Assembly: GCA_019694975.1 (NCBI GenBank)
Contig: JAIBAY010000001.1
Coordinates: forward strand, 688,732-752,731
DNA from: Chitinophagales bacterium
Lineage (GTDB): Bacteria > Bacteroidota > Bacteroidia > Chitinophagales > UBA10324
DNA: 64,000 bases
Reading direction: 5' to 3'
The notes under the pieces are model-generated. The model saw only the letters and a list, made by a program, of their open reading frames with translations, was not told the DNA's origin and did no database searches. A program made the translations under genes and the position numbers. How positions within the stretch are numbered: the stretch's first letter is position 1; each line of letters begins with the position of its first letter. Of this stretch, positions 1,539 through 27,845 are shown piece by piece.

Positions 1539-1601
1539 TACCGGGAAGATCAGCATAATACCTCCAATGGAAAGCTTGTATTTTCAACAAGGGCTAATGA
1601 T

Positions 1602-2270: not shown

Positions 2271-2440
2271 GGTTTTCCGTTAAATTGATTAATTTGAACG
2301 CTCGAAATGAGTTGTATGTATGCCTGCGGATGCCGAAACGGGGCCGAAGATAACCAACCGCGCTTTTATACATCATTTCATTCGTCGAACATTTTAATTA
2401 TAGACTATATCCATCCTGTTTATTAAGTAAAGAAAGAAGC

Positions 2441-5400
2441 GTGAACAGAACTGCCCATCTTTTATTCCTGCTGCTATTGTTCGGTGCCGGCTTCCCCTCA
2501 TTTGCCCAAACCACCGATGCCGAATTTGGCCAGAATCGTGTACAGTACAAAGATTTTGCATGGTCGTATTACCAGACCGAGCACTTTATGGTGTACTTCT
2601 ACCTGGGAGGCCAGGATATCGGCAAGTTCACCATCCTCGACGCGGAAAAGGAACTCACTGATGTAGAAAACAAGACTGAATACAAACTGAATGACCGCGT
2701 GGATATTCTTGTTTACAACAATTTATCCGACCTTAAACAATCCAATATCGGTTATGGTGCGGAGCTCAACAATACCGGTGGTACCACCAAGATCCTGGGC
2801 AACAAAATGTTTGTGTATTTTGATGGCAACCATCAGCACCTCAGGCAACAAATCCGCGAAGGAATAGCGAGCATCTTTTTGCAGAATATGATGTTTGGCG
2901 GCAGCATACAGGAAGTGGTGCAGAATGCGGTATTACTGAAACTTCCGGCGTGGTTCAAAGACGGCCTCACTTCCTATATCGGTCAGTCGTGGAGCACTGA
3001 GCTTGACAACAGGTTGCGTGACGGTGTTTTGAGCGGGCGTTATAAAAAGATGAACAAACTCACCGGCACGGATGCCCGTTTTGCCGGTCATGCAGTATGG
3101 CATTACATCGCTGAGAAATACGGTGAGGCCACGATACCCAACCTCTTATACCTGACACGTATCAACCGCAGCATGGAAAGCGGGTTCAGTTTTGTGCTTG
3201 GCAAATCAGTAAAGGATTTTTTGGAAGAGTTTAACCAATATTACACGCAGCTGTATAAAGAAGAAGCGGTGGGCAAGGAAATGCCTTCCGCAAAAGAGGT
3301 GATTAAGAAGAAAGACCGGCGGGGAGTTGAATATAATCAGCTACACGTAAGCAATGATGCTTCGCATGTGGCATTTGTCAGAAATGATCTCGGAAAGTAT
3401 AAAGTATGCCTCAAAGACCTGAAGACCGACAACACAAAAACACTTCTTAAAGGCGGATACAAAAATATTTCGCAGCCAATTGATTATTCGCAACCGGTTT
3501 TAGCTTTTGATCCTACCGGTAAAAAATTAGCGATGGTTTATGAGAAACGAAGTAAGGTTGCGTTGTTGCTGTATGATATCGATGAGCGGAAAAAAGACAA
3601 ACGTTATGTCGCGAATTTTCAAAAAGTGCTTTCCATCAGCTACAGCGATGCCAATACACTCATAATATCCGCTATCAACCGTGGACAATCCGACATCTTC
3701 ACGCTGAACACGCGCTCTTCCCGGTTTGAACAGATTACCAATGACTTTTACGATGACCTGAATCCGCATTTTATCAAGCTGCCGACCAGGCAAGGCATTG
3801 TCTTCTCTTCCAACCGGCACGATGATACGTTACGCACAAAATTCATGGATACCACGCGTGCCATCAATAACTATGACTTGTTTTTTTACAACACGAAGAG
3901 CAAATCGAAGGAACTGGTACGGATCAACAAGACGGCAACGGTAAATGAAAATCATCCTTCTCTTTTCAACTCCGATTACTTTTCTTATATCAGTGATGCG
4001 AATGGCATTGCCAACCGTTACATCGCATATATTGACAGTGTCTTTGATCACTATGATCAGTATTATTATTTTCAGGATTCAACGGTCGTTAACCCTGCTT
4101 ACAATATTGATTCGCTGTTGGTGGCTGAAAAGCGGCAACCGGATTCCACTGCGCAGGTGCCTGTATTCAGGGATACCGCGATTTCATTCCCGCAAACCAA
4201 CTATGCCAGGGGCATACTCGAGCAGGACGTGGCAACCAGGGCAGGAAAGGCTGCACAGGTGATGAAGAATAATGACCGCTTCGAATTCACGCTGGTCAAA
4301 ATACCTAAAGAAATTGACCGAGCAACGCTGCCGGTTCTCAGCAATACCACTTATGCCAATCAGCTGGCACGAAAAACAGAACCAGCAGCAGATGTTCCCG
4401 TGGTAATTCCTGAAAAACCGAAGCTGCCTGAGATAAAGCAACTGCCTGATTCTTTGAGATTGTTTCCCGATTCCACAAAGGCTGACACGACGACACAATC
4501 GCTCCAAAACAATTACTACTTCCAGAGTGACTTCTCACTGGCACCTGTAAGGGTGACACTCGATTCGATGATCAACCGTACGCCCGGGAAAGTGCCCGCT
4601 TTCCGTTATTCAAAAATTCTTCCATACAATGTAAAGTTTTCCACGAGCCAGGTAGTAACGCAGCTGGATAACAGCCTCGTGATAACACGCTATCAACCCT
4701 TCGCCGGAAATGGTGGTGTCTTCGATAATCCAAACCTCAATGCATTGTTGCGCGTTGGAATTTCCGACCTCATGGAAGATTACCGTATCACCGGAGGATT
4801 CCGTTTCCCCACTTCTTTTGACGGAACGGAATACTACCTCATGTTTGAAGACCTGAAGCACCGGCTCGACAAGCGGTATACGGCCTACCGGAGATCTAAA
4901 ACTGTTTCCTATGATGCGAATCCGTTATGGTACCTGCCCGTGAATGCAAAGCAACGCACATACATTGCTGATGTAACCTTACGTTATCCGATTGACTATA
5001 ACAGAAGCCTGCGGCTCAGCACTTCGTACCGCAATGAACGCATCAACTACCTTGCAACAGACAGCTTCAGCCTTGGACTGGCACAATATACACAACACTG
5101 GGCGGTGATGCGGCTTGAATATGTATTCGACAATACGCTAAAAATTCAAACCAATATTTATGACGGCATCCGTTATAAATTTTATGTGGATGCGCAAAGA
5201 CAGATTAATGAAAAAAACACCTACCTGTTTGCCACCGGTGCCGATTTCCGTTACTATAAAAAAATATCGCGCAACCTGATCTGGGCATCGCGGTTAAACG
5301 GCGCCACTTCATGGGGCGATCAGAAAGTGGTTTATTACATGGGCGGCGTGGAGAATTGGTTTGATCCCAAGTTCAGCACAGAGACACCCGTTGACAGGAA

Positions 5401-5827
5401 TGCCGGATATGCCTTTCAGACATTAGCCGTGAATGTGCGCGGGTTTCCGCAAAATATTCGCAATGGCAACTCCTATGCGCTGGCGAATACAGAAATCCGG
5501 TTTCCTATATTCTCGTATTTCATTACAGCACCGATCCGCTCTGAGCTGGTGCGCAACTTTCAGCTCGTAGCTTTTGCCGATGCCGGAACAGCCTGGCAGG
5601 GTATTTCTCCTTACGATGAAAACAATCCGTTTAACACGCTCAACATTACACAAGGCCCCGTTACCGTGCATGTGAATTATTTCCGTGAACCGGTGGTGGT
5701 GGGTTATGGCGGTGGCGCACGCACCACCATACTGGGTTATTTTCTGCGCGTGGATTGCGCACAGGGCATTGACAGCGGCGCCCGCAAAAAAGTGATGTGG
5801 ATGTTTTCCATGGGAACAGATTTTTAA
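2441..5827 (+). CDS. Outer-membrane protein: degenerate gluzincin domain, TolB-like propeller and C-terminal beta-barrel
   Basis: An 1128-residue exported protein starting at GTG 2441, with a signal peptide (residues 1-23, ending SFAQ). Residues about 40-275 resemble a peptidase MA-like (gluzincin) domain. Where the zinc motif HExxH is expected there is REGIA (139-143), while the downstream WFxEGL-type segment survives as WFKDGL (171-176), so the peptidase is probably inactive. Residues about 290-540 form TolB/PD40-type propeller blades. A Pro-rich variable stretch follows (about 590-760), then strands typical of a surface-antigen (BamA-type) barrel up to the C-terminal Phe. It is probably an outer-membrane protein with a periplasmic or surface propeller. 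The function is unknown; similar proteins are often annotated only as TolB-like translocation proteins. Confidence 0.75.
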   Translation: MNRTAHLLFLLLLFGAGFPSFAQTTDAEFGQNRVQYKDFAWSYYQTEHFMVYFYLGGQDIGKFTILDAEKELTDVENKTEYKLNDRVDILVYNNLSDLKQSNIGYGAELNNTGGTTKILGNKMFVYFDGNHQHLRQQIREGIASIFLQNMMFGGSIQEVVQNAVLLKLPAWFKDGLTSYIGQSWSTELDNRLRDGVLSGRYKKMNKLTGTDARFAGHAVWHYIAEKYGEATIPNLLYLTRINRSMESGFSFVLGKSVKDFLEEFNQYYTQLYKEEAVGKEMPSAKEVIKKKDRRGVEYNQLHVSNDASHVAFVRNDLGKYKVCLKDLKTDNTKTLLKGGYKNISQPIDYSQPVLAFDPTGKKLAMVYEKRSKVALLLYDIDERKKDKRYVANFQKVLSISYSDANTLIISAINRGQSDIFTLNTRSSRFEQITNDFYDDLNPHFIKLPTRQGIVFSSNRHDDTLRTKFMDTTRAINNYDLFFYNTKSKSKELVRINKTATVNENHPSLFNSDYFSYISDANGIANRYIAYIDSVFDHYDQYYYFQDSTVVNPAYNIDSLLVAEKRQPDSTAQVPVFRDTAISFPQTNYARGILEQDVATRAGKAAQVMKNNDRFEFTLVKIPKEIDRATLPVLSNTTYANQLARKTEPAADVPVVIPEKPKLPEIKQLPDSLRLFPDSTKADTTTQSLQNNYYFQSDFSLAPVRVTLDSMINRTPGKVPAFRYSKILPYNVKFSTSQVVTQLDNSLVITRYQPFAGNGGVFDNPNLNALLRVGISDLMEDYRITGGFRFPTSFDGTEYYLMFEDLKHRLDKRYTAYRRSKTVSYDANPLWYLPVNAKQRTYIADVTLRYPIDYNRSLRLSTSYRNERINYLATDSFSLGLAQYTQHWAVMRLEYVFDNTLKIQTNIYDGIRYKFYVDAQRQINEKNTYLFATGADFRYYKKISRNLIWASRLNGATSWGDQKVVYYMGGVENWFDPKFSTETPVDRNAGYAFQTLAVNVRGFPQNIRNGNSYALANTEIRFPIFSYFITAPIRSELVRNFQLVAFADAGTAWQGISPYDENNPFNTLNITQGPVTVHVNYFREPVVVGYGGGARTTILGYFLRVDCAQGIDSGARKKVMWMFSMGTDF

Positions 5828-6388
5828 GGCTTGTGTTTGGCAGGGTTCCCTGCTGTAGTATATTATGTAAGAAATATGATTACGCTGTGATTTGCCAACG
5901 GAATCACGACGTGCATGTAAGAAGCCTGTTGTAAGTGATTATCGTTTCCCCTTCTTGCAATCATACGGCTGACGCATGCAACCTGTGGTTACAACTAACG
6001 GTCAATGATGCTGCTGCATACAGCGGCATGTGGTGCGGGCAGTATCTGTACAAAATAAATTCGCGGGACAAACTCCTTCATTTCAAAGTGCTGCCGATAA
6101 GTGCTGGCCTTCACACAAATGGTGCTGTCCGCTGTAGTTACATATAATTCTATGTGTCGGAAATGCTGCTTATTCAAATCAGCAATTGATAACATCTGCG
6201 GCTTGCATCAATTAAATTTCGATTGCATACTGAATGGAAAAAGAATGATTACATGATCCGGCGAGAAGCCAGGGTTTGCACTGCAGCGTATTAGAACCGG
6301 TTCATTTTATCGGTGATTACATTCGCGTAATAGCGCGGCTTCAATTCCTGAAAATTCAAAATTAAGCAGGTAGCTTTGCCACCCCGTT
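5828..6388. other. Intergenic stretch of about 560 bases, no recognised gene
   Basis: The gap lies between the barrel gene and the DMT transporter. It holds a small hairpin (GTGATT, nine-base loop, AATCAC at 5887-5907) and, at its right end, the transporter promoter. Two open frames of 66-70 codons exist on opposite strands at about 5935-6195, but neither resembles a known protein, so I do not call them. I see no tRNA or riboswitch fold. Confidence 0.5.
6371..6378 (+). promoter_or_regulatory. Bacteroidota -7 promoter element (TAgcTTTG)
   Basis: An exact match to TAnnTTTG, the -7 element used by the Bacteroidota primary sigma factor, ten bases before the ATG at 6389. No clear -33 TTG partner is visible. 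The expected start of transcription leaves almost no 5' leader. Confidence 0.6.
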
Positions 6389-7306
6389 ATGAACTACCGT
6401 TACAGCACGCACTTCTATCTCTTTGCGGCCAACCTGATTTATGCATTAAGCTTTACCATTGCCAAAGATGTGGTGCCGCATTATATACAACCATTCGGGG
6501 CAATTGTAATCCGCGTTTCGGTCGCACTCGTGCTTTTTACAGCTGTTCAGCTCCTCTTTATCAGGGAAAGCATCCGGCGAAAGGATATTCCGCTGCTGAT
6601 CCTTTGCGGACTATTCGGCGTGGCCATCAATCAGTTGCTTTTTTTCAAAGGCCTCAGCATCACCACGCCCATCAATGCATCGCTGATGATGACGACCACA
6701 CCCATCCTTATTTTATTGCTGTCCGGCATCTTTCATGATGAAAAAATTACCTGGCTGAAGATAACAGGCGTGTTGCTGGGCGCCATTGGTGCAGTCCTCG
6801 TCATCATATCCGGCAAAGAATTCACGCTCGGTGGCGGACAGACAACCGGCGACATGCTCATTCTGATCAACGCTGCGTCTTATGCTGTTTACCTGATTAT
6901 CGTAAAACCTCTGATGAAAAAGTACCGGCCCGTCACCGTCATCACCTGGGTTTTCCTATTCGGCTGGCTCTTTGTGCTACCGGCAGGCTGGCAGGAGTTC
7001 TCGGCCATTGACTGGCAGCTATTCACGCCGTGGCTGTGGGCAGAGCTGTCCTTCATCGTCATCTTCACCACCTTCTTTGCCTATCTGCTGAACACCCTCG
7101 CCATGGAACATGCCTCACCCTCCGTAGTGGGCATATATATTTACCTTCAACCGGCATTGGCTACGATCTTTGCCCTGTTGCTGAACAGGGATGAGTACCC
7201 GCTGATAAAAATCATTGCCACTGTTTTCATCTTTGCAGGCGTTTATTTTGTGAGTGCGAAGAACGCGTTCAGCAGGAATGAAAAGGAAGAAACGAACACC
7301 ATTTAA
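6389..7306 (+). CDS. EamA/DMT-superfamily transporter
   Basis: A 305-residue integral inner-membrane protein with about ten hydrophobic segments arranged as two EamA repeats, the drug/metabolite transporter layout. Each half has the expected late-helix pattern: TTPILILLLSGIFHDEKIT in the first repeat, and an AxxxxYLQPxxA segment (IYIYLQPALATIFALLL) in the second. Members export amino acids, nucleotides or other small metabolites; the substrate cannot be read from sequence. It starts at ATG 6389, ten bases after a perfect -7 element. yicC follows after 68 bases. Confidence 0.88.
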   Translation: MNYRYSTHFYLFAANLIYALSFTIAKDVVPHYIQPFGAIVIRVSVALVLFTAVQLLFIRESIRRKDIPLLILCGLFGVAINQLLFFKGLSITTPINASLMMTTTPILILLLSGIFHDEKITWLKITGVLLGAIGAVLVIISGKEFTLGGGQTTGDMLILINAASYAVYLIIVKPLMKKYRPVTVITWVFLFGWLFVLPAGWQEFSAIDWQLFTPWLWAELSFIVIFTTFFAYLLNTLAMEHASPSVVGIYIYLQPALATIFALLLNRDEYPLIKIIATVFIFAGVYFVSAKNAFSRNEKEETNTI

Positions 7307-15092: not shown

Positions 15093-17369
15093 TTATTGTT
15101 TGACCACCTTCCTCATCACACTTCCCTTATCATTCACCAATTCCACAAAATAAACTCCGTCAGGTTGCTTTGATAAATCCAGCGACACTTCCTGTTGTCC
15201 TGCAGCATTTTCAACCTGTTGTTCCATTACTGTGGTGCCAACCACATTTTTCAGGCGAAGTAACGTTCCCGCTTCAGCTACTTGCAACGTGACATGCAAT
15301 ATGCCATTCGAAGGATTCGGGTACACTGTAAAACCCGGTTGGGATGCAACAGCCTGTGCTATGCCGGTGCTTGCATCAATCACAAAATTCTGATCGGAGA
15401 TATCGAAAAAAACATTTCCAGCTGATTGCACCATGATACGAGCCTTGGTGGTAAACAAGTCCTGATCATTAGGTAGGGTGATGGCTTCACTGCCATCATT
15501 TGCTGTATTGGATAACAGGGCAACCGGGTAAGTATATCCACCGTCAATTGACAAAAGGATATTCACCGAGCTGCAATTTATCGGTGCGGCATCCGTGGAA
15601 GAAACATCCCAAGTAACTGTATGCGTAGTGCCAATGCCCCAGGTATCGGTGGTGGTTGGATAGGTTACTTTAAACGGTGCACCGGTGTTGATTACAGAGA
15701 GAGTAACGGGTGTATCATCATAAGTATATCCGCCGCCATCGGGCCGGTTGTCGCGTACGATAAATCTGAATTTCATGGAGCGGGCATAGCCAGGCAAAGT
15801 TTCACCATTGGAAACTGCTCCTGTAACAATGCTTGACAGTTTCGGAAAATAACGATAGGGTACAGTGTCTGCTTTAAAGCTGCGGAATGCGGGTGCATTG
15901 CCTGTCGGTGCATTCATATTTGTAGCCGGTCCTTTGTCAATTTCCTCCCACATGTAGGAGAGTGAATCGCCATCGGCATCTGCTCCGGTACCGGTTAATT
16001 TGAAATATGTTTTATATGGGATGGAATAGTTGCTGCCTCCGTCAGCAGAGGGTGGCGTATTGCCTGTTTCCACCAATACCGGACAACCTGAACCTTCCGC
16101 TTCAAACGCATAATCACTGATCTCATCGTAGCTGCCTGTATGAAAAAACGGATCGCTGTGTGACTGCAGGTCGTTGGGTGAACAGATGCCGGCATAAGCC
16201 ATTATAGATGAACCGCTGCCCGGTTCAAAAGCTGTACCGGGTGCCCTGTTACCACCGCCACAGGCTCCTGAAGTTGAGTTGAAAGTATGGTTGCCACCAA
16301 ACTGATGGCCCATTTCATGCGCAACATAATCCACATCAAATGCATCGCCCGTCGGATTCGGCAAACCGGTGACTCCATTCGCCTTTTGGCTATTGATACA
16401 AACGACACCAAGCCCGGCGATACCACCACCGCCGGTACTGAATACATGGCCAATATCATAGTTGGCACTGCCTATAATTGAGTTAATCGTTGATTGATTC
16501 TGATCCAGCATTACATAGCCATCATTATTGGTATATGGGTCTGTTGCGTCAACGAGGTAAATCAATGTATCATTGTTTTCTATCAATTCTAGGCGGATAC
16601 CGAGTTCAGATTCATAAATACCGGTTACCCTGTTCACCGAGGTTGTCATCCCTGACAAGGCGCCGCTGACCGTGCCTCCTTTAGTGGCAGCATACTGCGC
16701 AGTGCAGGCCAGTGCCAGCCTGTAAATTCTCAGCTGATCGCCCGAACTGCGATATTGAAGCGAATTGTGCTTTTTTTCAATACCGGAATCTTCATGTGAT
16801 TCACTTTTCACTTCACAGTCAAAAGCATATTGCCGCGGAAGATCTCTTTTGTTATAGGCGATATAGTAATCAGTGCTTTCATTGCTGACGGGATCAATAA
16901 ACACATCACCACGGGGAGATAATATCATGGCATGAAACCCGAAATCAGTTACATCAATACGGATGTGGGCACGCGGATCTGAAATACCTGTTCCGGCATA
17001 CGTTTTTATTTCAGGATATTTTGCAGCCAGGGCAGGTGCCATTACCGGCGATTCAAAAATCTCAAAATCATCGATTGAACCATCCGGCATCGGCAGGCTC
17101 ATCACCAGGCTCTTAGAACGCGCTGAGGCAGAAAATTCCATAGGCGCAGACAGCAAATGGTTCCGCATCGCATTGATATCCAGCTGTAGTGTACGGTAAG
17201 CTGCCGGAGTGGAATACCTTGAGCCATACATAAACGCAACTCCGGCATTAACGTCCTGCCAGAAGGAAGCAGACTGACCATAAGAATTAAATGCGGTCAA
17301 ATTTAACAGGATGAGAAAGGTACTCAAGACACTGCGCCGGCGGAAGCCGAAAGACTGTAAAAATTTCAT
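15093..17369 (-). CDS. T9SS-exported reprolysin-like (M12B-type) zinc metalloprotease
   Basis: A 758-residue secreted protease with a signal peptide (about residues 1-33). An N-terminal prodomain-like region (35-200) precedes a metzincin catalytic domain (about 210-420). The extended zinc motif HEMGHQFGGNH (351-361) and the Met-turn SIMAYAGI downstream are intact, so it should be active. Beta-sandwich/fibronectin-like regions follow, and the C-terminus is a type A T9SS sorting domain starting VYPNPSNG and ending VMRKVVKQ. The protein should therefore be exported to the cell surface or medium through the type IX system. Many Bacteroidota carry reprolysin-like paralogues for protein degradation. 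A clear terminator lies just after the stop. Confidence 0.9.
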   Translation of the reverse strand: MKFLQSFGFRRRSVLSTFLILLNLTAFNSYGQSASFWQDVNAGVAFMYGSRYSTPAAYRTLQLDINAMRNHLLSAPMEFSASARSKSLVMSLPMPDGSIDDFEIFESPVMAPALAAKYPEIKTYAGTGISDPRAHIRIDVTDFGFHAMILSPRGDVFIDPVSNESTDYYIAYNKRDLPRQYAFDCEVKSESHEDSGIEKKHNSLQYRSSGDQLRIYRLALACTAQYAATKGGTVSGALSGMTTSVNRVTGIYESELGIRLELIENNDTLIYLVDATDPYTNNDGYVMLDQNQSTINSIIGSANYDIGHVFSTGGGGIAGLGVVCINSQKANGVTGLPNPTGDAFDVDYVAHEMGHQFGGNHTFNSTSGACGGGNRAPGTAFEPGSGSSIMAYAGICSPNDLQSHSDPFFHTGSYDEISDYAFEAEGSGCPVLVETGNTPPSADGGSNYSIPYKTYFKLTGTGADADGDSLSYMWEEIDKGPATNMNAPTGNAPAFRSFKADTVPYRYFPKLSSIVTGAVSNGETLPGYARSMKFRFIVRDNRPDGGGYTYDDTPVTLSVINTGAPFKVTYPTTTDTWGIGTTHTVTWDVSSTDAAPINCSSVNILLSIDGGYTYPVALLSNTANDGSEAITLPNDQDLFTTKARIMVQSAGNVFFDISDQNFVIDASTGIAQAVASQPGFTVYPNPSNGILHVTLQVAEAGTLLRLKNVVGTTVMEQQVENAAGQQEVSLDLSKQPDGVYFVELVNDKGSVMRKVVKQ

Positions 17370-18327: not shown

Positions 18328-19455
18328 TTATTTCTTCTTAATAGAATCCCATTGCTGACTTGTCATGACACACCTGAATCCGCAATGTTCCAGTCCTGTA
18401 TCCTGGCTGGTTTTCATACGTGCGGTAATCCGGTAACTGGAGCAATAGCTGTCATTACATAAAAAAGATCCGCCACGGTTAACACGTTTTGGTATGGTAG
18501 GTTCTTCAGGATCAAAACTATCGGCAGGACCAGCCGGATTAACAACCATCTTTTGGGCTGCACAGTCCTTATAATAGTCGAATCGGTACCAATCGCTGCA
18601 CCATTCCCAAACATTGCCAGCCATATCATACAGTCCGTAACCGTTTGGCGGAAAAGACTTCACTGGCGCCTGCAATTCATAGCCATCTTCCCTGGTATTC
18701 TTATCAGGAAAATGTCCGTTCCAGGTATTAGCATGCCTGGCGTATTCCTTATCATTACCCCACGGATATTTATTGCCGTTTAAGCCGCCCCTTGCCGCAT
18801 ATTCCCATTCAGCTTCCGTTGGCAGCCTCTTCCCGGCCCATTTACAGTAGGCAACCGCATCATCCCAGGAAACCTGTACGACAGGGTAGTCATCCTTACC
18901 GGCAATGGTACTACCCGGCCCAAGCGGCTGTTTCCAGTTGGCACCATGCACCCATGACCACCATTGACCAATATTATCCAATGCAACAGGATAATCAGGC
19001 GGATCGAATACCAATGAGCCCGGCACAAAGATTGAATCCGGTGGCTTCGGTGTTCCCGGGGGCAGCTGCTTTTTTATCTCTTCCCAGTCGGGTTTTATTT
19101 CCGCAGTGGTAACATAACCGGTAGCCTTCACAAATGCAGCAAATTGCGCATTCGTGACTTCCGTTATATCCATCCAGAATCCATCCACATGTACCTGATG
19201 TGTCGGTGATTCATCCGGTCTTGCTTCCGCGTCGGAATCTATTCCCATCGTAAAATTCCCGCCCTCAATCCATACCATTCCCGGAGGTCCGCCTGCCGGT
19301 AATAACCTGCCGTCATCCGCGTCAGTTATTGCAGGTTCTGCGGCAACAGCGGACATAGCTTCCAGATTGTCTGCGTTTAAGGTTCCCACAACCAGGCAGG
19401 AAAGAAAAAAGGGTAATACGACCGCGGAGCGGAATGGATTTATACCGGAATTCAT
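18328..19455 (-). CDS. Exported formylglycine-generating-enzyme-like (SUMF1 domain) protein with both catalytic cysteines
   Basis: A 375-residue protein with a signal peptide (about 1-28) and one FGE-sulfatase/SUMF1 domain from GNFTMGIDSDAE (about 66) to the end. FGE oxidises a sulfatase cysteine to formylglycine using a copper-bound Cys pair. Here the pair is conserved: GGSFLCNDSYC places Cys333 and Cys338 five apart, as in human FGE, followed by the HCGFRCV ending. Many SUMF1-domain proteins, such as the gliding proteins GldJ/GldK, lack this pair, so this one is closer to a true FGE. No sulfatase gene is in the window. The -7 element TAcaTTTG lies 18 bases before the ATG. Confidence 0.85.
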   Translation of the reverse strand: MNSGINPFRSAVVLPFFLSCLVVGTLNADNLEAMSAVAAEPAITDADDGRLLPAGGPPGMVWIEGGNFTMGIDSDAEARPDESPTHQVHVDGFWMDITEVTNAQFAAFVKATGYVTTAEIKPDWEEIKKQLPPGTPKPPDSIFVPGSLVFDPPDYPVALDNIGQWWSWVHGANWKQPLGPGSTIAGKDDYPVVQVSWDDAVAYCKWAGKRLPTEAEWEYAARGGLNGNKYPWGNDKEYARHANTWNGHFPDKNTREDGYELQAPVKSFPPNGYGLYDMAGNVWEWCSDWYRFDYYKDCAAQKMVVNPAGPADSFDPEEPTIPKRVNRGGSFLCNDSYCSSYRITARMKTSQDTGLEHCGFRCVMTSQQWDSIKKK

Positions 19456-19631: not shown

Positions 19632-19639
19632 TACCTTTG
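19632..19639 (+). promoter_or_regulatory. -7 promoter element (TAccTTTG) for the amidoligase cluster
   Basis: An exact TAnnTTTG match 58 bases before the GTG start at 19698. It is probably the main promoter of the first two or three cluster genes. A -33 TTG is not clear. Confidence 0.6.
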
Positions 19640-19697: not shown

Positions 19698-20408
19698 GTG
19701 AACGAACAACATATCAAATGGCACTCTCCGATTTTAAACCGTGAAACCGAGATGCTGGTATATGGTGAAAGCGGTTACCCTATCATTACTTTCCCCACTT
19801 CCATGGGTAGGTACTATCAAAACCGTGATTTCAAACTGATTGAAAGTGTTGAATGGTATGTAAATAACGGCTACGTCAAAATTTACTGCGTCGACAGTAT
19901 TGATGAAGAAAGCTGGTACAACAAAAATGTAAGCCCCGCTATCCGTGCACTCAACCACATTACCTATGACCGCTTCATCAATGAAGAAATCATAACCAGG
20001 GCACAAAATGAAACCGGCCGCCCGAAAGTAGCTGTCGCAGGCTGCAGCTTCGGAGGATACCATGCCACCAATGTCGCATTCCGTTACCCGGAGAAAGTGG
20101 GCTATCTGTTCAGCATGAGTGCGGCATTTGATATTAAGCCGCAGATGGACGGACATTACGACGATAATGTGTATTATAACAATCCGACAGACTACCTGCC
20201 AGGACTGGAAAATCCTGCACTTCATGAAATGGGCATTGTGCTGGGTGCCGGCGAACATGACATCTGCCTTGAAGCCAATAAGCAGCTTTCAGATATTCTT
20301 AACAGGAAAGGTGTATCACACTGGCTGGATATCAGGATGGGTGCAGTACATGACTGGCCCATCTGGCGTGAAATGTTTCCCCATTACCTTTCCCAGATGA
20401 AATTCTAA
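19698..20408 (+). CDS. Alpha/beta-hydrolase fold esterase, first gene of an amidoligase cluster
   Basis: A 236-residue cytosolic protein of the putative-esterase (esterase D-like) group, with no signal peptide. The start is GTG at 19698. The catalytic triad is readable: nucleophile Ser117 in AGCSFGGY, Asp188 in GAGEHDICLEA, and His218 in GAVHDWPIW. Typical substrates are acyl esters or thioesters. Next to two ATP-grasp-type ligases, a GCS2 ligase and an amidotransferase, it could trim or release a peptide-like product, but that role is inference. The next gene starts 64 bases downstream on the same strand. Confidence 0.85.
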   Translation: MNEQHIKWHSPILNRETEMLVYGESGYPIITFPTSMGRYYQNRDFKLIESVEWYVNNGYVKIYCVDSIDEESWYNKNVSPAIRALNHITYDRFINEEIITRAQNETGRPKVAVAGCSFGGYHATNVAFRYPEKVGYLFSMSAAFDIKPQMDGHYDDNVYYNNPTDYLPGLENPALHEMGIVLGAGEHDICLEANKQLSDILNRKGVSHWLDIRMGAVHDWPIWREMFPHYLSQMKF

Positions 20409-20472
20409 GGCGGTAAACAGCGCACTCTGCAGCAATAGCACTTTTATTTCTTTACTCAATTCAAATCTTCTC

Positions 20473-21435
20473 ATGAAAAAAATCGGAATTCTTTTCGGCA
20501 TGGAACGTACGTTCCCAACAGCATTCATTGACCGTGTCAATTCAAAAAATGTGGAAGGCATTACCGCGGAAGCCGTCCGGATTGATAAAGTAGCGCAGGC
20601 CTATGCATCCGGCTACGATGTCATTATTGACCGTATCTCGCAGGATGTGCCTTTCTACCGCACCTTTCTTAAGAATGCTGCTTTATGCGGAACAGCCGTA
20701 TTGAACAACCCTTTCTGGTGGAGTGCCGATGATAAGTTCTTCAACAACTGCCTTGCCATCAAGATCGGTGTTCCTGTTCCGAAAACAGTGATCATTCCAT
20801 CACATGAACATCCAACGGATACTACCGGCGATTCCTTTTCAAATCTTGTAACACCACTGGACTGGGAAGGCATGCTGGGATACATTGGTTTTCCGGCGTA
20901 CATGAAACCATATGCCGGAGGCGGTTGGAAAAACGTATATAAGATCACGGATTCCGCCGATCTTTTTGCCAAGCATGCGGAGACAGGCCAGCTGGTGATG
21001 CTGCTGCAGGAAGAGATTCAGTTTGATGCTTACTTCCGTTGTTACTGCCTGGGTGGTAAATATGTGAAGATCATGCATTATGAACCACGCAATCCGCATC
21101 ACCTGCGTTATGTTGCCAATCACAATGTATCGGATGAGTTGATGCAGACGATTCATAATTATGTACTGAAACTGAATCATGCACTCGGATATGATTTCAA
21201 TACCGTTGAATTTGCCGTACGTGACGGCGTGCCGTATGCTATAGACTTCTGCAATCCTTCTCCGGATGCCGACCGGCATTCTGTAGGGGAAGAGAATTTT
21301 GAATGGGTGGTGGAAAACGCGGCGAATATGGCTATTGAAAAAGCACTCGCACACCGTGATGGTGCTGACAACCTTACCTGGGGCACCTACATCAAAAATG
21401 CGGCCCAGGGGCTGAGCATCGGTAAAGATTTCTGA
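20473..21435 (+). CDS. ATP-grasp domain ligase
   Basis: A 320-residue cytosolic ATP-grasp protein. ATP-grasp enzymes join a carboxylate (through an acyl-phosphate) to an amine or thiol. Visible hallmarks are the ATP-binding lysine in GFPAYMKPYAGGGWKNV (Lys145), the adenine-side LLQEEIQFDAYFRCY segment (177-191), and the metal-binding end NTVEFAVRDGVPYAIDFCNP, with Asp258 and Asn261. An N-terminal pre-ATP-grasp domain occupies about residues 1-100. The substrate is unknown; it is not an obvious glutathione synthetase, D-Ala ligase or RimK. It is the second gene of the cluster, and a structured intergenic element follows. Confidence 0.82.
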   Translation: MKKIGILFGMERTFPTAFIDRVNSKNVEGITAEAVRIDKVAQAYASGYDVIIDRISQDVPFYRTFLKNAALCGTAVLNNPFWWSADDKFFNNCLAIKIGVPVPKTVIIPSHEHPTDTTGDSFSNLVTPLDWEGMLGYIGFPAYMKPYAGGGWKNVYKITDSADLFAKHAETGQLVMLLQEEIQFDAYFRCYCLGGKYVKIMHYEPRNPHHLRYVANHNVSDELMQTIHNYVLKLNHALGYDFNTVEFAVRDGVPYAIDFCNPSPDADRHSVGEENFEWVVENAANMAIEKALAHRDGADNLTWGTYIKNAAQGLSIGKDF

Positions 21436-21448
21436 TAACTCCGGCAAT

Positions 21449-21520
21449 ACACGAATCACAGATAGCCTGCAGTACTTCGCCTCCGGCAACTGCAATGAAC
21501 ATCTTGTGATTCGTGTTATT
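21449..21520 (+). terminator. Two-tier inverted repeat between the ATP-grasp and GCS2 genes
   Basis: Outer perfect 12-base arms ACACGAATCACA (21449-21460) and TGTGATTCGTGT (21505-21516) flank an inner TGCAGT/ACTGCA hairpin (21468-21473, 21489-21494). ATTTTA follows. The sequence CTCCGGCAA occurs twice, just before and inside the structure. It may be a terminator or partial attenuator that sets expression of the downstream ligase. Confidence 0.5.
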
Positions 21521-21649
21521 TTATAAGGCTGCAAAGCTGCACTACCGCAGCGAATACACCTGCCTTGCAGCAAAAAGCAACAGACATCTTGCCCGATTCA
21601 GCTTTTGTTGTTTATTTTACCAGCCATCGCATAACCTATCTTCTGCACC

Positions 21650-22756
21650 ATGGTCAATAAGCTGTTTACATTAGGCATTGAGGAGGAATTCATGATTATT
21701 GATCCTGAGACAAGGGAACTTGTTTCGCACCTGCACCAGGTAGTGGAAGGCGGAATGACCCTGCTTAATGAACAGGTGAAAGCCGAAATGCACAAGGCCG
21801 TGGTGGAAGTGGGCACCAACATTTGCCATGATGTTAAAGAAGCGCGCAAAGAAGTGAAGCACCTGCGCAGCATCATTTCCGATATCGCCAAGAAGCAAGA
21901 CTGCCTGATTGGCGCCGCCGGTGCACATCCCTTTTCCCGCTGGCAGGATGCGATGATTACTGACCATCCGCGATACAAAGAGATCGTGAACGAAATGCAG
22001 GATGCCGCCCGCTCTAATCTGATCTTCGGCCTGCATGTGCATGTCGGCATCGACACACGGCAGACTGGTGTGCAGATCATGAATGCTGTCCGATATTTTC
22101 TGCCGCACATTTTTGCACTATCCACCAATTCGCCCTTTTGGCTGGGAAGAAATACAGGATACAAATCCTACCGGACCAAGGTATTTGACAAATTTCCCCG
22201 TACCGGCATCCCTGAGAATTTTACGAGCGCCGCTGAATTCGATGAATACATCGCACTGCTGGTGAAAACCGGTTGCATTGACAACGGCAAAAAAATCTGG
22301 TGGGATCTTCGCCTCCATCCTGTCTTCAGCACGCTTGAATTCAGGATTTGTGATGTGCCCATGCGGTTGGATGAAACTATTGCACTGGCCGCTATTATGC
22401 AGGCGGTGGTGGCAAAGCAACATAAACTGATGCAGCAAAATCTCACCTTCCGGACTTATAAACGGGCGCTGATCAATGAAAATAAATGGCGCGCTGCGCG
22501 ATATGGCGTTGATGGTAAACTCATTGATTTTGGCATCGAACAGGAAGTGCCCTTTCAAAGCCTGCTTGATGAACTGATCAGCTTTGTTGATGATGTGGTG
22601 GATGACCTGAACTGCAGGGAAGAAGTGAATTACCTGCAGGAAATTGTGAAGATGGGCAGTGGCGCCGACAGGCAGCTCAAAGTGTATGAACAAACCAATG
22701 ACCTGCGAAAGGTGGTGGACTTCATTGTAGCCGAAACAAACATCGGCCTGGACTGA
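21650..22756 (+). CDS. Carboxylate-amine ligase, YbdK/GCS2 family
   Basis: A 368-residue member of the GCS2 (glutamate-cysteine ligase type 2) fold family, the size of E. coli YbdK. The family opening LFTLGIEEEFMIID holds the metal-binding glutamates, and LIFGLHVHVGID (about 124-135) is the HxHxG-type signature. Members form a gamma-glutamyl or similar amide bond with ATP; YbdK itself is only weakly active as a Glu-Cys ligase, and the natural substrate of this branch is unknown. Third in the cluster, 214 bases after the ATP-grasp gene. The pairing with ATP-grasp ligases argues for stepwise assembly of a small peptide-like metabolite. Confidence 0.88.
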   Translation: MVNKLFTLGIEEEFMIIDPETRELVSHLHQVVEGGMTLLNEQVKAEMHKAVVEVGTNICHDVKEARKEVKHLRSIISDIAKKQDCLIGAAGAHPFSRWQDAMITDHPRYKEIVNEMQDAARSNLIFGLHVHVGIDTRQTGVQIMNAVRYFLPHIFALSTNSPFWLGRNTGYKSYRTKVFDKFPRTGIPENFTSAAEFDEYIALLVKTGCIDNGKKIWWDLRLHPVFSTLEFRICDVPMRLDETIALAAIMQAVVAKQHKLMQQNLTFRTYKRALINENKWRAARYGVDGKLIDFGIEQEVPFQSLLDELISFVDDVVDDLNCREEVNYLQEIVKMGSGADRQLKVYEQTNDLRKVVDFIVAETNIGLD

Positions 22757-23130
22757 AACTTCACAGCGGCTGCTTACGATTGTTATTTTGAAAGACAACC
22801 TTCCCTCAATCATCCTGCATCATTGTTCCCGATTCAACTATGAACATAAATATAACCGGAGTAGTAAACTGAACTGATGATTCCGTTATCAGCAAGGATT
22901 ATCGTCTTCAGGTAACAACTTCCAGAAGACTGACAGGAGATCCATAAATTTCTTTCCTGATAGTTTTATTATACGCTGGCGGCAGAAGATATGGTTTCCA
23001 TTTATATCTGATAGCTGTGGAAAATTAATTCTCTGTTAGTTTTATATTTGAACCTTATTAACAGATTTTTGATTTAGCAGTTGGCATCAGCAAGCTGCCA
23101 ATACCATCCGTAAGAAGTTTAGCCACCAAT
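22757..23130. other. 374-base gap inside the amidoligase cluster
   Basis: No open frame worth calling. It contains a -7 element at 23043-23050 and a small TTGGCA/TGCCAA hairpin at 23084-23104 in the presumed leader. The internal promoter implies that the last two cluster genes can be expressed apart from the first three. Confidence 0.45.
23043..23050 (+). promoter_or_regulatory. -7 promoter element (TAtaTTTG) for the amidotransferase gene
   Basis: An exact TAnnTTTG match in an AT-rich stretch, 80 bases before the ATG at 23131. Confidence 0.45.
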
Positions 23131-24009
23131 ATGGAGAAACCGAATATCAAAGTAGCCGTTCTCGACCTTTACAACCGCGAGAAGAATGAAGGCATGCGCG
23201 GCATTCGGTCACTGCTTTACCTCGAACGTCAGAAAACTGATGCCCGTGTCCGTTGGGATGTATATGATGTGCGTAATGCCGAAGAGTTACCGGATGAAAG
23301 CTACGATGTGTATATTTCTTCCGGCGGGCCGGGCAGTCCGCTGGCAAGCGGCGAACACTGGGAAAAGAAATACTTCAGGCTCATTGACAACTTATGGGAG
23401 TACAATCTGAAGCACAACGATCAGAAGAAGCATGTCTTTTTTATTTGTCATTCTTTCCAGCTGATATGCAGGCACTGGAAAGTAGGTGAAGTCACGAAAC
23501 GCAAATCCACTTCATTCGGCGTATTCCCGATTCATGAAACCAGCCGTGCCAGTAAGGAGCCGCTCTTTGAACAACTGCCGGAACCATTCTTTGCCGTTGA
23601 CTCCCGCGACTACCAGGTGATTCAACCGAATCATACGCTGATGGAACGGGAAGGATTTCAGTTACTCGCGCTGGAAAAACCAAGGCCACATGTCAATCTT
23701 GAACGCGCGATGATGGCTGTCCGCTTCTCCGATGAATTTATCGGCACACAGTTTCACCCCGAAGCAGATCCGCAAGGTATGTTACGCTACTTTGCCCGGC
23801 CCGATAAAAAGGAGCATATCATCAAACATCATGGCAGTGAAAAATATTACCAGATGGTTGACTTCCTGGACGATCCCCAAAAAATTGTATTGACACAAAA
23901 AGTTATTCTCCCTACTTTCCTTGCAAACTCTTTCAGGCAGGTGATAGATGCTGCCGACATGGTGCCTGAGCCCGGATTGAACCATGCATTTGAGCGTTTC
24001 TCCGGATAA
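23131..24009 (+). CDS. Class I glutamine amidotransferase-like protein
   Basis: A 292-residue protein with a class I GATase domain (residues about 5-225). The triad is present: Cys106 in VFFICHSFQ, at the place of the usual GxCxGxQ elbow, and His209 and Glu211 in GTQFHPEAD. An oxyanion-type SSGGPGSP segment sits at 63-70. These domains hydrolyse glutamine and feed ammonia to a partner synthetase, or act as gamma-glutamyl hydrolases. The elbow lacks the usual glycines, which could mean a changed substrate. About 70 C-terminal residues extend past the domain. In this cluster it may supply ammonia for amide formation or cleave a gamma-glutamyl intermediate; both are inference. Confidence 0.82.
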   Translation: MEKPNIKVAVLDLYNREKNEGMRGIRSLLYLERQKTDARVRWDVYDVRNAEELPDESYDVYISSGGPGSPLASGEHWEKKYFRLIDNLWEYNLKHNDQKKHVFFICHSFQLICRHWKVGEVTKRKSTSFGVFPIHETSRASKEPLFEQLPEPFFAVDSRDYQVIQPNHTLMEREGFQLLALEKPRPHVNLERAMMAVRFSDEFIGTQFHPEADPQGMLRYFARPDKKEHIIKHHGSEKYYQMVDFLDDPQKIVLTQKVILPTFLANSFRQVIDAADMVPEPGLNHAFERFSG

Positions 24010-24206
24010 GACCTCAACACTTATGTTTTCTTCCTGCGGGAATTTTCAAAAAAAATCCATGCGGCCTGCCATTTAATCATGTGCAGCGATTGCTCCTTCC
24101 GCTATTTTGAAATTAGAAATATTGTTCTCACCACGCAATCATCAGCGCGGCTGAACGGAGCCGTTTCCCTTTAACTTTCTTTATTACCGCCTCTCTGGTA
24201 TTTAAT

Positions 24207-24214
24207 TATTTTTG
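24207..24214 (+). promoter_or_regulatory. -7 promoter element (TAttTTTG)
   Basis: An exact TAnnTTTG match 23 bases before the ATG at 24238. It suggests a dedicated promoter for the last gene of the amidoligase cluster. Confidence 0.5.
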
Positions 24215-24237
24215 ATGCTGCTCAAAACGCAACAGTC

Positions 24238-25428
24238 ATGGTTCCTTACTATCGCGAAAAATATAATGCACAGTTTACCGCCGAAAAATATAAACGCTTC
24301 CTTGCAAACCTCAATGAAGAAGCCGGCTATCACATTGAATTCAGGATTGCCGAATCGCCGATTTTTGTTCCCCGCAGCTTCGAAGATCAGCTGATTGCCG
24401 GCGGCGATGAGATCCTCCGCACCGTGACGTCACCGGAATATTACCGTATCTCCGACCGCGCCATTCCGCCACAGCTGCGGGTTCCCAATGAAGAATCAAG
24501 GCCACAGACAATTGCCATCGATTTTGCCATCTGCCGTAATGAAGCAGGCGATTTGTCGCCACAGCTTATAGAGGCACAGGCCTTCCCTTCACTCTTCGCT
24601 TATCAGCATTGGCTGGCCGGCAAATTCAGAGAGCATTTCTGGGTGCCCGATAATGTGAGCCACCTTTTCAACGGATTGAATGATGAAACTTATGTAAAGC
24701 GCATCAGGCAATGGATTGTGGGGTCCGAAAACCCGGAAAATGTTGTGCTGCTTGAAATTGAACCGGAGAAACAAAAGACGCGTGTTGACTTTGAACTAAC
24801 GAAGAAAATGCTGGGCATTGAATATGTCTGCATCAGTAAAGTGATCCGTGAAGGCCGCAAACTGTTTTATGAGCAGAATGGCAGAAAGATTCCTATTCAC
24901 CGTATCTATAACCGCGTGATCTTCGATGAGTTTGTTAAACGAAAAGATCTCACCTGCCAGTTTCACCTGACGGAAGAGGTTGATGTAAGCTGGACCATTC
25001 ACCCTAACTGGTTTTTCCGCATCAGTAAATTCTCCATGCCATTTATTGACAGCAAGTATGTTCCGAAGACACAGTTTCTCGACCAGGTGACGGTTATTCC
25101 GGAAGACCTGGAAAATTATGTGCTCAAACCCCTCTTCTCATTTTCAGGGCACGGCGTAACTTTTGACGTGCAGCGGGCAGATATCGATGCCATTGCCGAC
25201 CGGCACAACTATATCCTGCAACGCAAGGTCCAATATGCACCGGTGATTGCATCGCCCACCGGCCCGGTTAAAGCAGAAATCAGGTTGTTGTATATCTGGT
25301 TGCCGGATGAACCTAAGCCAATGCTTACCATTAACCTCGTAAGGCTGAGTAAAGGAAAAATGATTGGTGTGGATTATAACAAAGATCTCGACTGGGTTGG
25401 TGGCAGCGTTGGGTTTTATGAATTGTAA
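24238..25428 (+). CDS. ATP-grasp-like protein, last gene of the amidoligase cluster
   Basis: A 396-residue cytosolic protein with no signal peptide. The C-terminal third looks like an ATP-grasp nucleotide site: NYVLKPLFSFSGHGVTFD (the Lys and Gly-rich loop), then YILQRKVQYAPV and AEIRLLYIWLPD. The N-terminal two thirds are unfamiliar; they contain a PQLIEAQAFPS segment that might hold a metal or substrate carboxylate. A divergent or circularly permuted ATP-grasp of the glutathionylspermidine-synthase type is possible, but I cannot settle this by eye. It would be the third bond-forming enzyme of the cluster. The frame is also open a few codons before the ATG at 24238. Confidence 0.65.
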   Translation: MVPYYREKYNAQFTAEKYKRFLANLNEEAGYHIEFRIAESPIFVPRSFEDQLIAGGDEILRTVTSPEYYRISDRAIPPQLRVPNEESRPQTIAIDFAICRNEAGDLSPQLIEAQAFPSLFAYQHWLAGKFREHFWVPDNVSHLFNGLNDETYVKRIRQWIVGSENPENVVLLEIEPEKQKTRVDFELTKKMLGIEYVCISKVIREGRKLFYEQNGRKIPIHRIYNRVIFDEFVKRKDLTCQFHLTEEVDVSWTIHPNWFFRISKFSMPFIDSKYVPKTQFLDQVTVIPEDLENYVLKPLFSFSGHGVTFDVQRADIDAIADRHNYILQRKVQYAPVIASPTGPVKAEIRLLYIWLPDEPKPMLTINLVRLSKGKMIGVDYNKDLDWVGGSVGFYEL

Positions 25429-25588: not shown

Positions 25589-25596
25589 TACCTTTG
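25589..25596 (+). promoter_or_regulatory. -7 promoter element (TAccTTTG)
   Basis: An exact TAnnTTTG match 17 bases before the ATG of the redoxin lipoprotein (25614). Confidence 0.6.
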
Positions 25597-25613: not shown

Positions 25614-26189
25614 ATGAGATGTATTTTATGTTTCAGCCTGCTGGTCATCGTCCTGCAAACCGGTTGTTCAAAAAAGGAATCCGAACCTGATTTTTTTGCA
25701 ACTGACCTCAATACCGTACAGCATGAAAAATTTTCCTTTGCTGAGCTCCGCTCCGCGAAAGCAGTTGTCATCATTTTTCTTCAGCCGGAATGCCCCTTCT
25801 GCAACTCCTATGCAAAAACTTTTCGACGGCTCGACAGCACTTTCCAGGAAGCTGATATCGTGATGTTAGGCGTTGTGTCAGGCAAGAATTATGCAGGCAG
25901 TGAAATCACAGAATACAGTACCAAAAACCGCCTTCACTTTACAATACTGCTCGATCCGGATTTTGTTTTGCAGAAAAAGCTGAATGCCACTATTACGCCG
26001 GAAGTTTTCCTGATAAGCAACAGCGGTCAAACGCTTTACCGTGGCATGATCGACAACTGGGGTTATGAGATTGGCAAAGTGCGGCCCATGGTTACAGCAC
26101 ATTACCTGACGGATGCCGTAAATGCCATGCTGCAAAACAAACCCATCATCATTGATTCAACCAAAGCTATCGGATGTTATATTGAATGA
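25614..26189 (+). CDS. Redoxin/thioredoxin-like lipoprotein
   Basis: A 191-residue lipoprotein: hydrophobic leader and lipobox LQTGC with the lipidated Cys at about residue 18. The mature domain is a TlpA/AhpC-type thioredoxin fold with the redox pair CPFC (in FLQPECPFCNSYAKTF, about 60-63) and the cis-Pro segment TPEVFLI. It should act as a periplasmic thiol oxidoreductase. It has its own promoter. The next gene encodes a cytochrome c and copper-monooxygenase-like protein, and these two domain types are often adjacent or fused in other bacteria, so a joint role in periplasmic redox chemistry is plausible. Confidence 0.85.
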   Translation: MRCILCFSLLVIVLQTGCSKKESEPDFFATDLNTVQHEKFSFAELRSAKAVVIIFLQPECPFCNSYAKTFRRLDSTFQEADIVMLGVVSGKNYAGSEITEYSTKNRLHFTILLDPDFVLQKKLNATITPEVFLISNSGQTLYRGMIDNWGYEIGKVRPMVTAHYLTDAVNAMLQNKPIIIDSTKAIGCYIE

Positions 26190-26423
26190 CGGCTGCATTG
26201 TCCGGCACTATTCCCGGATAAAAAATTTTCCCGCTAATTTCATCCGACGCATGTTTCATGGTTAGCAGAAGCCACCTTAAAATATCCGGAGTTCTCCTGT
26301 CACGACTGATCGGGGTCAGGATCATTTCCATTCATTGACAAATACTGAAATAAATTCGGCATGACCACATTGAATTCCTGTTTTGAGATAGCTTCTGGTA
26401 TATTGGCCGCCGCTTTTGACAAG

Positions 26424-27845
26424 ATGAAAAAAAAAGCACCTGTCATTCACCAACCTTTTCGATGGCACATGCGCTATGCAGGGTGCTTCCTGCTGCTCAT
26501 CGCCGCATTATCATCCTGCACACAAAAATCTACTGTCACTTTTTCGAATGATGTCGCACCCATCATCTATGCAAAGTGCACCAAGTGTCACCGGCCCGGT
26601 CAGCCTGCACCGTTTACGCTCATCAGCTATAAGGATGTCGCCAAGCGCAGCAAAACCATTCGCAAAATCATTAATCTCGGAATCATGCCGCCGTGGCCTG
26701 CAGATGCTACGTACTGGCATTTCCTCGGTGAAAATCAATTATCAGCGCAACAGATCTCCATCATCAACCAATGGGTGGATGCTGGCGCGCCACTGGGTGA
26801 CACCAGTAATATACCACGGCCGCCGTATTTTCCGGCCGGCTCGATGATCGGCAAACCCGACCTCCGTCTTAAAATAAAACCTTACCTGGTAAAAGGAGAT
26901 AACACAGACCGGTTTATGGTGATGAAGATACCGTTTGAGTTGCCTGCCGATACTTTCATCAGCGCCATTGAGTTTGTACCCGGCAGCAACCTGGTACATC
27001 ATGTAAATGGCAGGATCATTTTTTACGACAGCGACCGGAAAGCCGATGTTTTTGCCGGTGATTATGCACTGGACACTAAAGATGAAACACGCGAATCTGT
27101 TTTCAGCAAGATGAACCTGCTAAATGATGACGGAAGTTATCCGGGTAATGATCACTACATCCATTCCGCAACGAACTATCTGCCCGGCGCAATCAGCATG
27201 TTGTATCCGGAAGGCATCGGCGGTTTCTTTGTGCGGAAGAAAGGAATCATTTACCTGAATGATATTCACTATGGCCCTTCGGGCGAAGATGTGCTCGACA
27301 CCTCTTTTGTGAATATTTTCTTCAGTGCAACTCCGCCCAAAAGGCCGGTGCAGGAAATTCAACTCGGCACATTAGGTATTTCCGACATTATCCCTTCATT
27401 GGTCATTCCGCCGGACACTGTTATGACCTTTGTTACACGTGCCAGGATACTGGGCGATATCTCATTACTCACCATCAATCCGCATATGCACCTGCTGGGA
27501 AAATCATTTATAGCCTATGCGTTGCAGCCAAACGGTGATACGATTCCGCTGATCAGGATCAGGCATTGGGACTTCCGATGGCAGTACTTTTATACATTTG
27601 AGAAGATGCTCCATATTCCTGCCGGATCAACCATAGAAGTAGTGGCTGTGATGGACAATACACGCAACAATCCCAACAACCCACATCATCCGCCACAACA
27701 GGTAGAAGGAAGAAACGGGAGCATGCGCACCACCGACGAAATGCTGCAACTGATCCTCACCTATCTGCCCTATCAGCATGGCGATGAAAACATCAGTCTG
27801 AATACGCAGGATGGAGCGGCTGCGATGCAAACTGATCTGAAGTGA
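26424..27845 (+). CDS. Lipoprotein with c-type heme domain and copper type II monooxygenase-like domain
   Basis: A probable lipoprotein; ATG 26424 gives the leader MKKKAPV and lipobox LSSC, with 26361 and 26469 as alternative starts. The heme motif CTKCH follows about 20 residues after the lipobox, within a planctomycete-type cytochrome c domain with the NLGIMPPWPADA segment holding a candidate axial Met. The rest resembles PHM/DBH-type ascorbate-dependent copper monooxygenases, and the ligand set can be traced: LVHHVNG, DIHYGPSG, NPHMHLLG and a late TTDEM. This predicts a two-copper hydroxylase fed by a heme domain in the periplasm. The substrate is unknown. Homologous domains occur fused with redoxin elsewhere; here redoxin is the separate upstream gene. 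Confidence 0.75.
   Translation: MKKKAPVIHQPFRWHMRYAGCFLLLIAALSSCTQKSTVTFSNDVAPIIYAKCTKCHRPGQPAPFTLISYKDVAKRSKTIRKIINLGIMPPWPADATYWHFLGENQLSAQQISIINQWVDAGAPLGDTSNIPRPPYFPAGSMIGKPDLRLKIKPYLVKGDNTDRFMVMKIPFELPADTFISAIEFVPGSNLVHHVNGRIIFYDSDRKADVFAGDYALDTKDETRESVFSKMNLLNDDGSYPGNDHYIHSATNYLPGAISMLYPEGIGGFFVRKKGIIYLNDIHYGPSGEDVLDTSFVNIFFSATPPKRPVQEIQLGTLGISDIIPSLVIPPDTVMTFVTRARILGDISLLTINPHMHLLGKSFIAYALQPNGDTIPLIRIRHWDFRWQYFYTFEKMLHIPAGSTIEVVAVMDNTRNNPNNPHHPPQQVEGRNGSMRTTDEMLQLILTYLPYQHGDENISLNTQDGAAAMQTDLK

Follow-up and report, generated by a model that had tools for sequence, protein, structure and literature searches.

What do five adjacent genes of a Chitinophagales bacterium, most of them predicted to make or break amide bonds, do together? 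The genes lie in a 64,000-nucleotide stretch (the window) in contig 1 of a 4.3-Mb genome in 14 contigs. The five open reading frames (ORFs), called g1 to g5 here, were confirmed on the plus strand at the positions in Table 1, as described in an original prediction made from the letters of the window, and their order is kept across genera and phyla. As a whole, the set is best explained as a dedicated, mostly chromosomal pathway that would make and turn over a small intracellular amide metabolite, a reading in which our confidence is about evenly balanced.

Conservation of the gene set

Presence was counted in 296 sampled genomes of the phylum. Homologues of g1, g2, g3, g4 and g5 were present in 124, 108, 103, 70 and 92 genomes, respectively, and g2 was the member kept most constantly. 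About one third of these genomes retain the set and 50 have all five genes. g2 and g5 occurred together in 89 genomes, with g5 lacking g2 in 3 and g2 lacking g5 in 19 (p 3e-52), and g3 and g5 occurred together in 87 (p 2e-51). Kinship was handled only by counting at the genus or family level: g2 was found in 64 of 64 g5-bearing genera (p 2e-26, with relatedness above genus uncorrected), and at the family level the links of g5 with g2 and g3 had p-values of 1e-6 and 3e-7, respectively. The presence of g4 tracked g2 at this level, not g3 or g5.

For 45 of the 55 genomes in the close group, g2 lay no more than 8 kb from g5 and on the same strand. The nearest g5 relatives among named genomes belonged to Chitinophagales and other Bacteroidota. 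Furthermore, g5 was found in loci labelled Ignavibacteria, Verrucomicrobia, Calditrichota, Acidobacteriota (Thermoanaerobaculum, Holophagales) and candidate division KSB1, mostly metagenome-assembled genomes for which individual taxon labels may be wrong; where enough upstream sequence was available, most of these loci also contained further members of the set, with order and strand unchanged. Since order and strand recur across genera and phyla and the genes co-occur at the genus level, chance adjacency is excluded and the five genes belong together. No plasmid record matched g2 at an expectation value (E) of 1e-10, which is consistent with a chromosomal, housekeeping role.

Conservation of all five genes in order had been named as support for a real pathway. 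The order does recur, but membership varies: the GCS2 ligase encoded by g3 is sometimes absent, g4 can be exchanged for an M29-type protein and g5 for a different circularly permuted ATP-grasp, and a second PF00756 esterase often adjoins.

The three predicted ligases

Comparison of g5 with Pfam and NCBIfam gave no family match. Its AlphaFold model (45 sequences) had a predicted local distance difference test score of 94 and a predicted template modelling score of 0.92, in agreement with the ATP-grasp fold proposed earlier for this gene. The fold was not that of a generic ATP-grasp enzyme, but the circularly permuted one of glutathione synthetase, GspS and YgiC/YjfC. A Foldseek search with the model matched yeast glutathione synthase (E 1e-14), and fold comparison gave Z values of 26.5 for YjfC, 25.9 for YgiC, 25.2 for GspS and 24.8 for homoglutathione synthetase (range 24.5-26.5); 340-343 residues were aligned with YjfC, YgiC and GspS at a root-mean-square deviation of 3.5-3.7. 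The yeast, human and soybean (homo)glutathione synthetases were matched as well. K297, P298, S301, G304 and V307 of the ATP loop KPLFSxxGxxV are conserved in g5, and the loop pairs with KPIFSREGANV of YgiC as KPxFSxxGxxV (alignment E 0.012). Judged by its model, g5 is predicted to be a peptide-amine ligase with a circularly permuted ATP-grasp fold.

YgiC and YjfC of E. coli are cited as peptide-spermidine ligases (Pederick et al. 2023, reference 48 in PMC12568646). Together with GspS, the glutathionylspermidine synthetase/amidase of E. coli, they have the same full-length fold as g5 (Z 25-26.5) and the KPxFSxxGxxV loop, and GspS joins a ligase and a hydrolase in one system, as proposed here for g5 and g4. 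However, g5 has about 10-13% identity to these proteins, below detection by the family models used, and carries E-x-Q, not E-x-N. The set also differs in its hydrolase, a GATase-fold (class I glutamine amidotransferase) or M29 protein unlike the GspS amidase domain, and in the addition of GCS2 and a RimK-like ligase. Fungal Cp1B, which joins epoxysuccinate to an amino acid as an amide in E-64 biosynthesis (PMC12568646), is like g5 a permuted ATP-grasp without a detectable Pfam domain that works with other amide-forming enzymes, but it belongs to fungal secondary metabolism and has 13% identity to g5.

In one lineage the arrangement is g1-g2-X-g4, where a protein of about 455 amino acids (X455), often followed by the second PF00756 esterase, replaces the linked GCS2 and g5. 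X455 resembles circularly permuted ATP-grasps (PF14403, E 2.7e-5; putative glutathionylspermidine synthase 3n6x, E 1.7e-8), and a profile comparison of g5 with X455 gave a suggestive P of 0.018.

With g5 identified by its fold and g2 and g3 by family matches, the set contains the three ATP-dependent amide-forming enzymes first proposed for it. g3 cleared the curated GCS2 family cut-off (NF010039, 544 bits vs 371). g2 scored 34 bits against the RimK family model, for which the curated cut-off is 143, and would by its sequence be a RimK-like ATP-grasp that is not classed as RimK. The g2 profile matched the ATP-grasp domains of pyruvate carboxylase and D-Ala-D-Ala ligase (E 4e-4 to 1e-3), and residues K145, E246, D258 and N261 are conserved. 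GCS2 is dispensable to the set: a true GCS2 is absent from genomes G037, G064, G158 and G178, which retain g2, g4 and g5; G013, G034, G096 and G131 have no GCS2 at all; and g2-g4-g5 are contiguous without it in loci L194 and L195.

The predicted hydrolases

g4 matched the class I GATase family PF00117 (35 bits, cut-off 22.8), and its model has the class I GATase fold, with Arabidopsis gamma-glutamyl peptidase 1 as the top Foldseek match. Because TM1158, MetA and DnfC match the fold at similar Z, the fold alone picks no reaction. By alignment, the Cys-His-Glu residues and GGPG loop listed in Table 1 are invariant. The elbow departs from the canonical GxCxGxQ, as had been noticed from the window, and its C106, H107 and S108 are invariant in 37 homologues; g4 is therefore not filed as a classical amidotransferase. 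It has the fold and Cys-His-Glu of gamma-glutamyl peptidase 1, but differs from it in identity (about 17%), in the ICHS(F/Y)Q elbow and in sometimes occurring without GCS2.

In Ignavibacterial and Verrucomicrobial loci, the position between g3 and g5 (slot 4) is occupied by an M29-type metallopeptidase of about 340 amino acids (PF02073, E 3e-15). Its E197, E269, H295, H315 and D317 are conserved or invariant, and we take them to be the expected M29 metal ligands. The M29-type protein was found in 6 of the 296 genomes and g4 in 70, and none had both; the same held for 80 named loci. As a metallopeptidase takes the place of the GATase-fold protein, the exchange points to amide hydrolysis at slot 4 as more likely than ammonia supply. 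Both ammonia supply and gamma-glutamyl cleavage had been offered for the GATase, and the exchange speaks for hydrolysis and against ammonia supply. A YtcJ-type amidohydrolase (named by eye) lies beside g5 in L141, L143, L145 and L147 and within the set in L156; it was rejected as a third slot-4 enzyme, since its adjacency to g5 is limited to a small number of related genomes and a single other case.

g1 belongs to the PF00756 esterase family, and its Ser, Asp and His residues are conserved in 34 homologues. A g1 homologue was present in 104 of 108 g2-positive genomes, yet often at about 35% identity and unlinked. The second PF00756 esterase lies near the set in many loci, often divergently (21 members, median distance 124 nucleotides); its homologue is unlinked in the window's own genome. 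L158:9963-11522 holds the sole fusion seen, that of a set-adjoining esterase with a DinB/YfiT bacillithiol-transferase-like domain.

Proposed pathway

The association of the genes, their folds, the conserved catalytic residues and the exclusive exchange in slot 4 are seen in the data; we infer the directions of the reactions, the order of the steps and the identities of the substrates. Where present, g3 would attach glutamyl by way of an acyl phosphate, and g2 would form another acid-amine bond. g5 would activate the carboxylate of the small peptide so formed for coupling with an amine, most likely a polyamine or an amino acid. g4, or its M29-type substitute, would cleave one amide bond in trimming or recycling, and g1 and the second PF00756 esterase would take off an acyl or ester group. 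A peptide-amine, either gamma-glutamyl or peptidyl-amine, is the product that we infer as the best fit.

Several observations weigh against this pathway. With only 6 M29-positive genomes in the sample, the mutual exclusion of this protein and g4 does not reach significance on its own (p 0.34), and 31 g5-positive genomes have neither, so that slot 4 would be optional or occupied by something unseen. g4 occurs without a true GCS2 in 8 genomes and is thus not simply a gamma-glutamyl hydrolase of the g3 product. In g5, E112-x-Q114 is invariant where the usual Mg motif of the family is E-x-N (equivalence judged by eye). In several lineages the genes are scattered.

Alternative explanations

The set might make a glutathione-like low-molecular-weight thiol or a derivative, with GCS2 forming gamma-glutamyl-cysteine, g5 extending it, g4 acting as a gamma-glutamyl peptidase and the PF00756 proteins as S-acyl-thiol hydrolases. 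The likeness of g5 to the yeast, human and soybean (homo)glutathione synthetases, the match of g4 to gamma-glutamyl peptidase 1 and the YfiT fusion in L158 would suit this, as would the distribution of true GshB (E < 1e-40), which was present in 1/30 set-positive vs 7/20 set-negative genomes (p 0.005) and, within class and order, in 1/17 vs 7/14 (p 0.011). The best PF02955 match in the window's own genome (G000) had E 4e-19, compared with 1e-50 to 1e-56 in the strong GshB group elsewhere. The set tends toward genomes without classical glutathione synthesis, a contrast that ancestry could explain. A eukaryotic-type (homo)glutathione synthetase working with a GCS2-type GshA has the same two ligase folds, GCS2 and permuted ATP-grasp, but here g3 is of the YbdK/PRK13515 branch, a third ligase (g2) is present and GCS2 is dispensable. 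Canonical glutathione was rejected as the product, since GCS2 is dispensable and no true GshB was found in the window's own genome. The fold of g5 makes the comparison with glutathione closer than was originally thought. Whether or not the set was present, BshC was found in 69/70 genomes. Bacillithiol is probably the main thiol, and with BshC nearly universal the product of the set was rejected for, and is unlikely to fill, that role. Given BshC and presumably bacillithiol regardless of the set, a dispensable GCS2, a fusion seen only once and a GshB contrast confounded by ancestry, we consider such a thiol product unlikely.

Glutamine-dependent amidation, in which g4 as a glutaminase would feed ammonia to g5 or g2 and the product would be a primary amide, for instance that of a peptide, would account for the presence beside ATP-grasp genes of a class I GATase-fold protein that keeps its Cys-His-Glu. 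It is improbable, because the M29-type metallopeptidase in slot 4 cannot plausibly yield ammonia from glutamine, the g4 elbow reads CHS and not CxG, and g4 follows g2 at the family level. The RimK/LysX-like nature of g2 would suit the modification of a protein or carrier protein in the manner of RimK or LysX/LysW, with the hydrolases as demodifiers, and ligase plus hydrolase arrangements are known for peptide tags; however, clustering of the neighbourhoods (ORFs below 110 amino acids omitted) showed no recurrent carrier or target gene beside the set, and the best fold relatives of g5 act on small molecules, which makes this very improbable. The original prediction held that homologues in unrelated contexts would count against a common pathway, and scattered copies do occur in some lineages, though not so as to refute the prediction outright. 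Together with gaps of up to 374 nucleotides and internal -7-like sites, such copies would be expected if the five genes were adjacent for mixed reasons. With co-occurrence at the genus and family levels, recurrent order across phyla and the slot exchange opposed to it, we hold this to be the least probable of the explanations.

Locus layout and neighbouring genes

Table 1. Features of the five-gene locus in the window
Feature	Position	Strand	Basis or remark
TACCTTTG, Bacteroidota -7-like element	19632-19639	+	5' of g1; motif search with TANNTTTG
g1, alpha/beta hydrolase, PF00756 esterase family	19698-20408	+	Family match; conserved Ser117, Asp188, His218
g2, RimK/LysX-like ATP-grasp ligase (predicted)	20473-21435	+	TIGR00768 E 1.9e-8, under curated cut-off
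Strong terminator-like hairpin between g2 and g3	21449-21516	+	12-bp perfect arms; folding z -4.1
g3, GCS2 / YbdK-family carboxylate-amine ligase	21650-22756	+	NF010039 (PRK13515)
TATATTTG, -7-like element	23043-23050	+	5' of g4; motif search with TANNTTTG
g4, class I GATase-fold hydrolase	23131-24009	+	Elbow ICHS(F/Y)(Q/E); invariant C106, H209, E211, GGPG loop
TATTTTTG, -7-like element	24207-24214	+	5' of g5; motif search with TANNTTTG
g5, predicted circularly permuted ATP-grasp ligase, glutathione synthetase / GspS / YgiC-YjfC fold	24238-25428	+	AlphaFold, Foldseek

The intergenic gaps from g1 to g5 are 64, 214, 374 and 228 nucleotides in order. The two internal -7 elements that had been reported were recovered, as was the hairpin, which lies between g2 and g3 (Table 1), and a fourth TANNTTTG site was found at 25589, 5' of the gene after g5. 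Over the whole window the motif was not enriched (34 found vs 46 expected), so the case for promoters rests on the positions of the sites. The gaps and internal -7-like sites suggest that the set may comprise several transcription units, not one tight operon. A search with a single strict pattern found no second copy of the hairpin motif in the window, and an Rfam scan gave no match at the gathering score.

Directly 3' of the set, window positions 25614-27845 encode an AhpC/TSA-type redoxin and then a Cu2_monoox_C-containing protein; the redoxin also comes after g5 in L036, L037, L039 and L042, which are the closest loci. A formylglycine-generating-enzyme-like protein (PF03781) is encoded divergently from g1 at 18328-19455, and a related fragment lies 5' of g1 in L036. 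At 15093-17369 there is a reprolysin-like metalloprotease with a C-terminal Por_Secre_tail (type IX secretion system) sorting domain.

Locus L150 carries, at 1350-6893 between g3 and g2 and all on one strand, genes identified by eye as coding for exporters of the EmrB and HlyD types and for a TetR-like regulator, a hint that the set's product or a substrate might be exported. Adjoining the set at L165:9788-14462 are genes identified by eye as those of a probable cyanophycin synthetase (CphA), a cyanophycinase and an isoaspartyl peptidase, and isoaspartyl peptidase-like genes were also near the set in L116, L119, L124 and L158. A cyanophycin link was rejected, as CphA was found at no locus other than L165.

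Implications

The enzyme families of the set are largely known, and within the literature searched the earlier statement that the gene set has no characterised product stands. Searches on COG4947 and on COG2170 with COG0189 found no study of the set; the amidoligase work of Iyer et al. in 2009, the likeliest source of an earlier prediction, may already predict part of this neighbourhood.

The fold match of g5 to YgiC and GspS points to a concrete substrate class, and this central ligase of the set is without a Pfam or NCBIfam family model despite its wide distribution. If the pathway proposed above is correct, a metabolite common among bacteria has so far been missed. Tentatively, and as a rather doubtful extension of that pathway, Bacteroidota, Ignavibacteria, Verrucomicrobia and others may share a broadly distributed, previously undescribed peptide-amine metabolite (gamma-glutamyl or peptidyl-polyamine), in the role that glutathione or its spermidine conjugate has in other lineages. 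Permuted ATP-grasp ligases of a new branch would make it, and interchangeable GATase-fold or M29 hydrolases would recycle it.

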